Below are positions 9,072 through 29,513 of a stretch of DNA of 64,000 nucleotides, one piece after another. The DNA comes from Sphingobacterium daejeonense (GTDB lineage Bacteria; Bacteroidota; Bacteroidia; Sphingobacteriales; Sphingobacteriaceae): NCBI RefSeq assembly GCF_901472535.1, contig NZ_LR590470.1:1054001-1118000 (forward strand), given 5' to 3'. Under the pieces are notes generated by a model. It was not told where the DNA came from, ran no database searches, and worked only from the letters and a program-made list of their open reading frames with translations. Both the position numbers and the translations under genes were made by a program. Position 1 is the first letter of the stretch. The number at the start of each line of letters is the position of its first letter.

Positions 9072-9222
9072 ACTTTTCTCAGAGATAGATATATGTTAGG
9101 TCCAACCCGGTTCATTTACCAGCTCTAGGTTTCGATTTGATCAGTCTCTTTCTGGTCTTTATCTATTGCTCATTTAAATTGATTTTAGTTAGCTGTTAAA
9201 TATTGTCAGATATTATCCTGCC
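9072..9222 (-). ncRNA. candidate dCas12f guide RNA A (solitary copy)
   Basis: Minus-strand positions 9222-9092 match the tail following the Cas12f-like gene (26347-26217) with only two substitutions in 131 bases. Homology stops abruptly after GGACCTAACATA. The next 20 bases here read TATCTATCTCTGAGAAAAGT, unlike the other copy. A scaffold that is conserved up to a sharp edge and then becomes unique is what a guide RNA with its own guide looks like. The shared segment continues upstream into 129 bp of the gene's 3' end (9223-9351), so the RNA scaffold may begin inside the coding sequence, as omega-RNAs of TnpB do. A strong terminator follows at 8974-9016. RNA ends and guide length are not determined. 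Confidence 0.5.
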
Positions 9223-9351
9223 TCATTCGACGATTACGTTAATACCTGCCATGTTCGCCTTGTACCTGATCTTTTCGATCAGGCCATAGTAACCCCAGTT
9301 GCGCAACAGGAATCTGTCCTCTTTAGCGGCCTCTTCTTTATTGGATTGATT
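9223..9351 (-). pseudogene. 3' fragment of the Cas12f-like gene
   Basis: Encodes the last 42 residues of the protein at 26348-27442 (from NQSNKEEAAKEDRF through GINVIVE and the same stop), identical at the base level. Homology ends sharply at 9351, so the rest of the gene is absent. It may be a leftover of a second dCas12f locus or, more interestingly, may have been copied and kept because these bases form part of the guide-RNA scaffold. Confidence 0.75.
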
Positions 9352-26196: not shown

Positions 26197-26347
26197 TTCT
26201 TATCCCGAACTCACGTTATGTTAGGTCCAACCCGGTTCATTTACCAGCTCTAGGTTTCGATTTGATCAGTCTCGTTCTGGTCTTTATCTATTGCTCATTT
26301 AATTTGATTTTAGTTAGCTGTTAAATATTGTCAGATATTATCCTGCC
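26197..26347 (-). ncRNA. candidate dCas12f guide RNA B (locus copy)
   Basis: Directly downstream of the Cas12f-like stop on the same strand. Positions 26347-26217 form the segment shared with 9222-9092 (two substitutions in 131 bases, in an A/U-rich part). The end of the shared part contains short complementary runs (CCTAGAGCTGG, AATGAACCGGGTTGGACC) that can form small hairpins. Right after GGACCTAACATA the copies diverge; here the next 20 bases are ACGTGAGTTCGGGATAAGAA, the presumed guide. No perfect second occurrence of that guide was noticed in this window. Exact 5' and 3' ends are unknown, and the scaffold may extend into the gene's last ~129 bp. Confidence 0.55.
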
Positions 26348-27442
26348 TCATTCGACGATTACGTTAATACCTGCCATGTTCGCCTTGTACCTGATCTTTT
26401 CGATCAGGCCATAGTAACCCCAGTTGCGCAACAGGAATCTGTCCTCTTTAGCGGCCTCTTCTTTATTGGATTGATTCACCAAAAGCAGCGTGCCAGCACC
26501 TGAATTGACGCAGACATCTATCAAACGGCGGCTATAGAGATGGAGTTTGCTATCGACATAGCGCTTTTCCCTTTCGGTAAAATGCTCCAAGCTTTTCAAC
26601 TTCTTCCTGCGTCCATGTCCCCCCCTGTTGAATGCCACAGCTTTTTGTATACGGTGCCTTGCGGCCTGGATGGCCAATCTCCGGTATAGGAACTCCTCTT
26701 TGTTCCCTATCTGAAAATTGTCCCTGTCTATGGAAACGGTGATGGGATGTTCGACCGAAAGCGAGGCTTCCGCAATGATGTGTTCTTTGAGGTCATGTTG
26801 CTTCTTAGGGAGTTCCAGTGCCAGTAAAAGGAATATTTTGCCCTTCACCATCTTGATGGAACTGGTGCATATCTTGATCTGTCCCACCAAGCATCTCTGT
26901 AACAGGATCCTTTTATCGGACCGATCTTTCCCTAGGTAAGTGCGGAAAGGGATCTTGAATAGCGTGAACCTGAAATCCCGTCCTTTCTCGTCATTGCCCA
27001 GCTTCAACTGATCTCCACCGAAGGGAATGGGCATGTCTTTCCTATAATTGCGCAACGACTTTTCACCCTTCCAATAAGATGATCGGTCAGTGCTATATGC
27101 CCTGTTCAACGTCATGTTCATGGCCGAGATAATTTTTGAAGGCAGCTTACCTTTAAAGTACAGCGATAGTATACGATAGGTGGTATTCATTTTCGAAGAA
27201 TTGAATATACCTTCGGGATCCTTTTTGAAGTCTGCCAGCTTTACCTTCACATCATCGCGCAGATAGATCAGGTCCTTTATCTGTTCCTGTACAAATTGAT
27301 GTGTCATTACCATATTGGCGCCACGATAGACCATGTCCTGCCACTCGAAGAGCTGCTTGAAATATGCCGAGCGCTGCCCTTTGTCGTCGCAGTCCAGATA
27401 TATCTGTACTTTCCGTGTGAGAATGATGCTTTCCTTTTCCAT
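26348..27442 (-). CDS. nuclease-dead Cas12f-like protein (dCas12f), RNA-guided transcription factor candidate
   Basis: 364 residues. The order of segments follows Cas12f1/TnpB: N-terminal strand LTRKVQIYL, a mid-protein MPIPFGGDQLKLGN, KGKIFLLLALELPKK before RuvC-I, and RuvC-I as ITVSIDRDNF (Asp239 kept). A bridge-helix-like FNRGGHGRRKKLKSLEHFTE at ~271-290 closely matches the GHGxxNKLK...LTEK segment of Cas12f1. At RuvC-II the usual V-x-x-E-N-L reads TLLLVNQSNK (Asn323 where Glu is expected). The protein then has NWGYYGLIEKIRYKANMAGI and stops after NVIVE, lacking the CxxC zinc finger and RuvC-III Asp. Cleavage is therefore very unlikely; RNA-guided DNA binding is inferred. It starts 11 bp after the sigma gene on the same strand, so sigma and dCas12f form an operon, matching nuclease-dead Cas12f/sigma-E systems of Bacteroidota. 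Confidence 0.85.
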   Translation of the reverse strand: MEKESIILTRKVQIYLDCDDKGQRSAYFKQLFEWQDMVYRGANMVMTHQFVQEQIKDLIYLRDDVKVKLADFKKDPEGIFNSSKMNTTYRILSLYFKGKLPSKIISAMNMTLNRAYSTDRSSYWKGEKSLRNYRKDMPIPFGGDQLKLGNDEKGRDFRFTLFKIPFRTYLGKDRSDKRILLQRCLVGQIKICTSSIKMVKGKIFLLLALELPKKQHDLKEHIIAEASLSVEHPITVSIDRDNFQIGNKEEFLYRRLAIQAARHRIQKAVAFNRGGHGRRKKLKSLEHFTEREKRYVDSKLHLYSRRLIDVCVNSGAGTLLLVNQSNKEEAAKEDRFLLRNWGYYGLIEKIRYKANMAGINVIVE

Positions 27443-27453
27443 ATTTTCTATAT

Positions 27454-28282
27454 TTATGTTCTCTGTGCTGTCCTTATCTTGGTGTGCGCCTGTACAAAAA
27501 TCTTCCTGACCGTGGATGGATCAAGATGCAGTGCTTCTGAGATCTGATCGAATGACAACTGCAACTGGTAGCGCATGTGAAAGATCTCTGCCTGTTGTTC
27601 ATCAAGTTCCCCCTGCGCCACGATCTTGCTCGACCTGTTCATCTGCTCCATTTTTTGCGAACTATTGAATATAGAACGTAGGGTATCGATCGTTTTTCTC
27701 TACCTGTAGACTGACCTGGTAATCCGAGATCCCGCCAAGGTAATAGGCTATACGTTCATAGTTGAAGCTGTATTTCAGACAGAGTTTGATGAACATTTGC
27801 TGCTGGCCGTTCAGGCTTGGCATTAAATTATCAAGTTGTATCAGGCGTTGCTGTTTTTCTTGATCTAATCTTTCGAGATACACTATGTCCATTTCTTCCT
27901 CTTCTTCCATTTCATGGCCGAGAAGGAATTCCTGATAATCCTCGATGGAATCCAACCGGAGCAGACTTCTATGGAACCTATTCCGTGTCTTATTATAATA
28001 GGCATTGATTGAGGACCTGACCTGTGCCTTTAAGAAAGCCTGGATATCTTCAGCATCTTTTAGCTGCTTTCTGAAAAGCCATAGACGCAATAAGGCTTCC
28101 TGGGCGATGCTTTTTGCTGCACAGTCGTCTTGTGTTGCACGGAATGCCCTTGCGAAGATATATCCGTAAAAACGCCGGTAGAAAAAGTTCAGCCCTTTCT
28201 CATCTCCCTTTCGGAGCAGAGCGATATGCCTATCTGTTTCCTGTTGCCTTAAAGTTTCGTTCATGATGGATCTATTGGTCAT
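27454..28282 (-). pseudogene. ECF-like sigma factor of the dCas12f operon (one frameshift; two region-4-like HTHs)
   Basis: Start 28282 (MTNRSIMNETLRQQETDRHI; a second ATG at 28264). Region 2 is clear: IALLRKGDEKGLNFFYRRFY, then AKSIAQEALLRLWLFRKQLK and IQAFLKAQVRSSINAYYNK. A Glu-rich linker (HEMEEEEEMDIVYLE) follows, then a first region-4-like HTH (FNYERIAYYLGGISDYQVSL). A 5-T run at 27693-27697 (A5 in the mRNA) carries one base too many; repairing it continues QVEKTIDTLRSIFNSSQKME and joins a second region-4-like HTH (LSFDQISEALHLDPSTVRKI) ending TKIRTAQRT. Repaired length ~275 residues, longer than a standard ECF factor. It likely recruits RNA polymerase to sites bound by the dCas12f-guide complex. 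The repair in one homopolymer gives a continuous sensible protein, so I suspect a base-calling error. Confidence 0.8.
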
Positions 28283-28391
28283 GTACCTACCCAGGTCCCG
28301 GCCGGCCCTAACGGATTTTCTGGAAAACCGAGATCATGTGATAGGTTTATAGTAAAAGTGAATGATACAATGATGTTATCTGTATGGAAGG

Positions 28392-28408: not shown

Positions 28409-28730
28409 ATTCTTTAAACAAAAGCGTTGGTTTTTAATCAAGCGTCATGTTTTATATAAATTTTTTTGATCTGAAAAATAAAAGGGGAGCAAGGGTCAAT
28501 TTTGTATAGGTCACTATAAAATTCGATCAAAAAGAACCGACCTTATGGTGTATTCTAATCATAGCCTTCCATATATCAATATACCTGAAAAGGCGATGGT
28601 AATTCTATGACCTGAACTCTATTTAGATTTACAGCAGACCTAGCTGCGTATAATATCAATGGGTCTACAGCAAGGCCCACTCTTTGTTCATACCGATGCA
28701 TTAAACCACCGTCTGTTGCATATAATTAGT

Positions 28731-28783
28731 ATTTAGTGAGTGAAATTTTCCTCACCCTGTGGCCTCACAAGCGGCCTCAATAT
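28731..28783 (-). repeat. structured ~53-bp repeat, unit 1 of 3
   Basis: Minus-strand reading ends with ...TTCACTCACTAAAT, sharply conserved in all three units. Two stems are visible: GGCC..GGCC (GAGGCCGCTTGTGAGGCC) and GTGAG..CTCAC. Spaced ~375 bp from unit 2. All three units lie upstream of the sigma/dCas12f operon in the same orientation. Confidence 0.6.
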
Positions 28784-29022
28784 CATTCAATTTTTATGAT
28801 TTTATAGCTTCCTCCTGGACAAACATATTTACTTAAAAAATAATAGGATGAGCAGAAGCCCACTAAAATTATCCCATCGGTTAGAAATAACGCAAGAGGT
28901 TCATAAAAAAAGTTTTTTAGATAATCTATTCCAAAACTTACGGACGTACCACCGATTTCAGTCCTATGCGATAAGAAGGATTCAATAGAATTTTCCCTGT
29001 TTTCAATGTCAGAAAGAACCAA
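28783..29022 (-). CDS. possible small membrane protein between repeat units
   Basis: 79 residues beginning MVLSDIENRENSIESFLSHR, with one hydrophobic segment (PLALFLTDGIILVGFCSSYY). Its stop abuts repeat unit 1. No family recognised and the codon pattern is not decisive; it may be a chance frame in AT-rich DNA. Confidence 0.25.
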   Translation of the reverse strand: MVLSDIENRENSIESFLSHRTEIGGTSVSFGIDYLKNFFYEPLALFLTDGIILVGFCSSYYFLSKYVCPGGSYKIIKIE

Positions 29023-29105
29023 TTTATTTTTCCCTATATGCTATCGGTTGAGACCATAAATTTATTTGTGGTACCGTCTAGAACGTTGTGTTTTTCTATA
29101 GAAGA

Positions 29106-29159
29106 ATTTAGTGAGTGAACATTGTCCTCACTCTGCGGCTCCACAAGAAGCCTCCTTAT
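29106..29159 (-). repeat. structured ~53-bp repeat, unit 2 of 3
   Basis: Same element as 28731-28783. In the first stem GGCT pairs with AGCC where unit 1 has GGCC/GGCC, a compensatory change supporting an RNA or DNA hairpin. It ends TTCACTCACTAAAT on the minus strand, followed by unique sequence. Confidence 0.6.
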
Positions 29160-29460
29160 TATATTTTCTCGATCAAAATCAGGTTTCGTTAAAACTGCTC
29201 TAAAACAACTCTATAGATGATCGTAAATATCCAATATAGGCTGTTATCTGGATACCATGAATTAACCTATTCTAAGTTGATTTAAGGACAATCATCGAAG
29301 TCGGTATAGTCCTTTATCCATTTTTACGATATCATCTAAATTATTTTTAGATGATCGCAGTATTCAACAGGCCGTTGTGCATAGATAAATAGTCTAAATC
29401 TCTATATGTTTACGGTTTATCGGGAAACCGCTAAGTAACATTGCAAAATATGATAATATT

Positions 29461-29513
29461 ATTTAGTGAGTGAAATCTGTCCTCACCCTACGGCGTCACA
29501 AGCAGCCTCAATA
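29461..29513 (-). repeat. structured ~53-bp repeat, unit 3 of 3
   Basis: Third unit, 355 bp from unit 2. The first stem reads GGC...GCC, the second GTGAG...CTCAC. The stretch 28283-29731 containing the three units has no other convincing gene. Confidence 0.6.

Follow-up and report, generated by a model that had tools for sequence, protein, structure and literature searches.

What does a Cas12f-like protein without catalytic residues do beside a sigma factor gene? The question is raised by a locus of Sphingobacterium daejeonense that lies in the window, i.e. the whole stretch of 64,000 nucleotides analysed here, which spans G000:C1:1054001-1118000. RNA-guided transcription with a 5'-G motif has reportedly been described for pairs of nuclease-dead Cas12f (dCas12f) and sigmaE in Bacteroidota, and the names of the PDB entries matched in this work, together with the entry 9n9q that both proteins share, agree with this description. 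Judged from its sequence, the locus likely belongs to this dCas12f–sigmaE class; it comprises a dCas12f, a sigma factor of the ECF type and what are likely three guide-RNA units, which probably work together as an RNA-guided transcription activator.

The 364-aa dCas12f (Table 1) was compared with the PDB by phmmer and matched 9n9c, an entry named ‘Nuclease-deactivated Cas12f’, with residues 3–363 aligned and an E value of 8.6e-116; 9n9q is also among the dCas12f entries matched, and the next matches after 9n9c are entries named Cas12f effector or nuclease, with a best E value of 6.6e-41. An AlphaFold2 model of 363 residues (without Met1) has a mean pLDDT of 80.4 and a pTM of 0.59. Full-length relatives within the genus show 53–90% identity, and the named relatives are Sphingobacterium species and one Parapedobacter record. 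The initial annotation had taken the Asp of SIDRDN for a retained RuvC-I residue, but this is Asp239, which is off the catalytic position and not conserved; in the alignment, GVDLG of the Cas12f 9nzo stands opposite AEASLS, which puts Ser227 at the true position. The same annotation was right that the RuvC-II Glu is lost, the Glu of 9nzo being aligned with Val/Asn of LLLVNQ (residues 319–324), and that the zinc finger and RuvC-III are missing, since the chain stops before both. Its 5' coordinate of 26197 overshoots the dCas12f ORF by 151 bp. Across an alignment of 31 rows, four of them duplicates, the RuvC-II Glu occurs in none, although an Asp adjoins its position in L018, L024 and L038, and an acidic residue (Asp) is found at the RuvC-I position only in L019.

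Some observations concern the DNA around the 3' end of this gene. A 260-bp direct repeat (99.2%), at 9092-9351 and 26217-26476 of the window, holds the 3' end of dCas12f and the DNA behind it, and flanks about 17 kb in a pattern like that left by a recent insertion or duplication. The proposed placement of the locus in an integrative island rests on a tyrosine recombinase and a relaxase, both present in the window. Isolated fragments of the dCas12f C-terminus, about 21 to 40 residues long, occur at L025, L026, L027 and L022 (genomes G015, G017, G026 and G018), in G018 without any other dCas12f match in the genome. The idea that such fragments are extra guide genes was ruled out by comparing 3' ends, the scaffold being a separate element.

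Upstream of dCas12f, the sigma gene had been annotated as a single piece ending 11 bp before the Cas12f-like gene. The spacing holds, with 11 bp between the dCas12f ORF and the last sigma ORF (which ends at 27454), whereas the single piece does not, the window having two ORFs, of which the 65-aa one corresponds to the C-terminal part of the sigma factor that relatives encode in one ORF. Sequence comparison relates both proteins of the operon to the 9n9q complex. Thirty-one loci were examined, 27 of which are distinct (L003, L004, L015 and L018 duplicate L034, L035, L037 and L038). A single sigma ORF of 266–282 aa lies 3–27 bp before dCas12f in 24 of the 27. The exceptions are the split window copy, L017 and L038; the latter two lack a sigma ORF of the usual size immediately before dCas12f and do have the tracrRNA-like element described below. 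The window genome also has a second locus at about 1.46 Mb (L023), with a dCas12f that is 85% identical (G000:C1:1464207-1465298), a one-ORF sigma and its own guide units.

Stops lie inside 10 of the 60 SusC profile hits in the window genome assembly, which may reflect sequencing indels left in the assembly or a large number of pseudogenes, and a sequencing error at the sigma frame of the window is possible for this reason. Just before the sigma gene, at about 28290-28345 on the (-) strand, there is a GC-rich inverted repeat, similar to ones in L044 (second locus) and L223; by eye, changes fall on both arms among the three loci, and control by a leader RNA is possible.

Table 1. Positions of the operon and of the guide-RNA features in the window.
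Feature	Position	Strand	Evidence or remark
dCas12f ORF, 364 aa	26348..27442	(-)	Homology to PDB 9n9c; RuvC catalytic positions lost, RuvC-III and zinc finger absent
Sigma factor, rest: region 4, 65-aa ORF in another frame	27454..27651	(-)	PF08281, E 2.6e-8
Sigma factor, first 206 aa: region 2 and following part	27662..28282	(-)	9n9q chain C RpoE, E 4e-20
Guide 1d, AAGGTCGGTTCTTTTTG	28528..28544	(-)	17/17 match at G000:C1:236280-236296, 5' G
Guide 1c	28623..28642	(-)	
Guide 1b	28663..28682	(-)	Related guide in second locus
Guide 1a	28695..28714	(-)	Related guides in second locus, S. wenxiniae and S. alkalisoli
tracrRNA-like scaffold, copy 1	28730..28778	(-)	Motif search, covariation across relatives
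Guide 2a	29065..29084	(-)	Related guide in second locus
tracrRNA-like scaffold, copy 2	29106..29154	(-)	Joined directly to short hairpin and guide (single-guide form)
Guide 3b	29354..29373	(-)	Behind degenerate repeat end
Guide 3a	29420..29439	(-)	
tracrRNA-like scaffold, copy 3	29461..29509	(-)	Motif search, covariation across relatives

The initial annotation did not include the guide-RNA gene region of the window (28528-29509), in which a 54-nt motif occurs three times upstream of the operon and on its strand. The tracr-like element is found near 23 of the 27 distinct loci on the operon strand, upstream in 22 and behind dCas12f only in L019, and near none of the 27 on the opposite strand. 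The loci without it are L007, L009, L010 and L013, for which just 1.5 kb of flank was covered, and L009 has a copy cut by the edge. Two hairpins are common to the 39 unique copies of the element, and the second hairpin covaries, with changes on both sides at columns 32/43 (GC, CG, AU), 33/42 (GC, AU) and 34/41 (CG, GC and UA, with some rows unpaired). Rfam gave no match at gathering scores. Between 28200 and 29700, promoter-like sites number seven compared with 7.1 in shuffles, and terminator-like sites two compared with 0.8 expected.

The units of the window are compact or degenerate: copy 2 passes directly into a short hairpin and guide 2a, whereas guides 1a–1d and 3a–3b lie behind degenerate repeat ends at copies 1 and 3, all guide borders having been inferred by reading. 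Guide 1d has a candidate target in the leader of an uptake operon (L131:881), 155 bp before a TlpA-like ORF with SusC and SusD-like ORFs behind it; at this 236 kb operon TlpA and SusD score under the family cut-offs. Taken alone, the 17/17 match has a genome-wide E value of 1.35, and guide 1d is the only one of the seven window guides with a 5'-G leader match. No targets were found for the other six (1a, 1b, 1c, 2a, 3a and 3b), and guide 1a, with up to three mismatches allowed in 20, matches nothing beyond its own locus. We discarded a match of guide 2a to a SusC gene in the window (49645, three mismatches in 18, 5' A), since two of the three hits obtained were guide genes and a control with the reversed pattern gave as many hits. 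A scan of 25 guides against 50 SusC-flank loci (219 kb), taken from 60 profile hits of which some are pieces of one gene, yielded near matches at the level of shuffled guides, with 4 versus 4.4 at 20 letters, 41 versus 44.8 at 16 and 131 versus 126.4 at 13.

Guide IIb of the second locus matches the same leader as guide 1d, with 12/12 letters at L131:380 and a 5' G. Two 5'-G prefix matches in one locus were seen in 0 of 200 shuffled guide sets for at least 12 letters, in 1 of 200 for 11 letters and in 13 of 200 for 10 letters. The form GRAGGTCGGTTYTT was sought in six genomes and matched in four, viz. the 236 kb leader of the window genome, S. alkalisoli, S. wenxiniae and G019, with no match in the other two and none for the reversed pattern. 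The S. alkalisoli site lies 234 bp upstream of an ORF scored as SusC (TIGR04057 over cut-off; the ORF is cut by the locus end), and this species has a related guide, L031f (14 of the first 15 letters; 5' G), which gives it the guide–target pair seen in the window genome. The match in G019 is within its own array, and that in S. wenxiniae is inside a terminator-like hairpin and was read as chance. A search with the 236 kb leader gave conserved leader pieces, which were compared with the arrays of their own genomes, mostly giving no long match above the reversed control; the clear exception is a 31-letter array match in L153, which is S. pedocola p1, discussed below.

The copy in the window may be a duplicate in decay, with a dead sigma and relic guides, the work falling entirely to the second locus at 1.46 Mb. 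The split sigma ORF would fit this, as would the degenerate repeat ends, the intact second locus with its own guide units, and the repetition of 260 bp from the 3' end of dCas12f at a distance of 17 kb. We nevertheless regard it as rather unlikely, as the dCas12f frame is open and conserved, the scaffold hairpins of the window are intact, guide 1d still matches 17/17, and the stops in 10 of 60 SusC profile hits make sequencing indels possible. If the break in the window sigma is real, the window guides would work with the intact sigma and dCas12f encoded at the second locus.

CRISPR-like arrays lie behind the element in S. alkalisoli, S. olei, S. lumbrici and S. pedocola, among others; in these arrays a 36-nt repeat ending GAAAGGTATACACAAC alternates with 30-nt spacers at a period of 66. 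The stretch behind the element (AUACCUUU and variants) is able to pair with the array repeat; over 11 hand-chosen systems, cognate anti-repeat/repeat pairs reach -7.0 kcal/mol versus -5.8 kcal/mol for swapped pairs (permutation p 0.003). Cas1 (PF01867) had no match in the window genome and is absent from nine of the ten genomes searched, S. olei being the sole carrier. Interspersed repeats that recur in many parts of the S. pedocola genome break up its arrays (L039:3700-7000), as does, by eye, a toxin–antitoxin-like stretch.

When this S. pedocola stretch was searched against its own genome, many hits were to the interspersed repeat sitting inside the array, and 40 of 80 first-look candidates were scored. 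Four of the 16 spacers read in the array match on the sense strand, three of them ahead of SusC ORFs and one ahead of a TlpA-like ORF. Spacer p1 matches 30/30 letters 826 bp before the ORF (5' G, E 1e-7), p2 26/30 at 92 bp (5' A, E 0.095), p5 27/30 at 49 bp (5' G, E 1e-4) and p9 27/29 at 522 bp (5' G, E 6e-4). The 5' base is thus G in three and A in one, and the distances to the ORF are uneven, from 49 to 826 bp. The genes behind the p1, p2 and p9 targets score as SusC (TIGR04056), that of p9 under the cut-off in an ORF cut by the locus end, and in the gene behind p5 a stretch resembling TlpA/ResA scores below the cut-off of the family. For the other 12 spacers no such target was found. Spacer L033j of S. 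alkalisoli also matches the p9 leader, with two mismatches in 24 and a 5' G. For the array stretches of S. alkalisoli, G015 and S. olei, a search of the respective genome gave no clear protospacer; one spacer of S. alkalisoli has a match in S. olei at 33/37 letters, including adjoining repeat letters, with a 5' T and not before a SusC gene.

This last match, to a mobile-looking region, would suit a worn-out CRISPR–Cas12f immune locus with arrays that record past invaders, as would the Cas1 of S. olei and the presence of repeat–spacer arrays with a tracr-like RNA in relatives. This reading of the locus is very improbable when set against the loss of the catalytic positions in nearly all 31 rows, the absence of Cas1 from nine of ten genomes, the guide starts common to different species, and the fact that all four S. 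pedocola self-matches are on the sense strand before SusC/TlpA genes. The system is like type V-F CRISPR–Cas12f immunity in its Cas12f fold (by homology), its tracr-like RNA and the arrays of relatives, and differs in having no intact RuvC nuclease, in the same scarcity of Cas1, in self-matching spacers before uptake genes and in the degenerate array of the window.

The alternative named in the initial annotation was a TldR-like RNA-guided repressor, in which dCas12f would block RNA polymerase at its target and the sigma gene would be a chance neighbour. TldR, according to PMC13418256, is a nuclease-dead TnpB-type RNA-guided repressor, and the resemblance lies in a nuclease-dead RuvC relative that regulates a host gene by guide RNA. 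A guide-bearing, nuclease-dead TnpB/Cas12f relative with some leader targets near the ORF (49 and 92 bp) is what this alternative has in its favour. It is nonetheless quite improbable, given the one-ORF sigma directly upstream in 24 of 27 distinct loci, the relation of this sigma to the RpoE of the PDB entry shared with the dCas12f homologue, and a score of 60.8 bits for the NCBIfam TnpB model on the window protein versus a cut-off of 100. Compared with TldR, the protein here is closest to Cas12f and has a sigma partner, each locus has several guides, the targets are SusC/TlpA leaders, and the predicted effect is activation. RNA-guided transcription, as first proposed for this locus, fits better than a TldR-like repressor because dCas12f and RpoE homologues occur together in 9n9q, guide-RNA genes are present and some guides match SusC/TlpA leaders.

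We propose a mechanism in which dCas12f would be led by its guide RNA to a site flanked by G within a leader of the SusC/TlpA-type uptake operons; once bound there, it would recruit the sigma factor and RNA polymerase, with transcription starting downstream. We infer that the RNAs are made, that dCas12f binds them and that this binding activates the operon. The dCas12f–sigmaE systems represented by PDB 9n9c, 9n9m, 9n9o and 9n9q are alike in their homologous proteins, adjacent genes and a guide RNA with sense-strand targets. The targets seen here are mostly behind a 5' G, and a G motif is reported for those systems. A possible difference is that the guides of the window come from several tracr-like units and those of relatives from repeat–spacer arrays; the sigma frame of the window is also broken. 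Control of SusCD by ECF sigma and anti-sigma factors is known, and the present system shares with it an ECF-type sigma and SusC/SusD targets, whereas the choice of target appears to be set by a guide RNA and no anti-sigma factor was noticed in the operon.

Considering how such guides may have arisen, an idea that we hold in even balance with its negation is that Sphingobacterium turned a whole CRISPR–Cas12f locus, with tracrRNA and arrays, into a multiplex gene-activation program. The self-matching spacers of the Cas1-less arrays would each select a SusC/TlpA operon, and in the course of the lineage the arrays would erode into compact natural single-guide RNAs such as those of the window. If this is true, the CRISPR array becomes a regulatory table in which each spacer names an operon to be switched on. 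The origin of guides for a non-cutting Cas protein without Cas1 would then be open to test, as would the co-evolution of guides and leaders and the purpose that part of the large set of ECF sigma factors and SusCD pairs serves in Bacteroidota. Compact multiplex gene activation would also be able to draw on natural single-guide RNAs and on guides coded in arrays.

A further observation concerns the putative target proteins. The ORFs in L185, L187, L191, L089 and L221 have an unusual N-terminus, MRKLRK, before a signal-like segment, and this N-terminus is common to SusC and TlpA-like target proteins.
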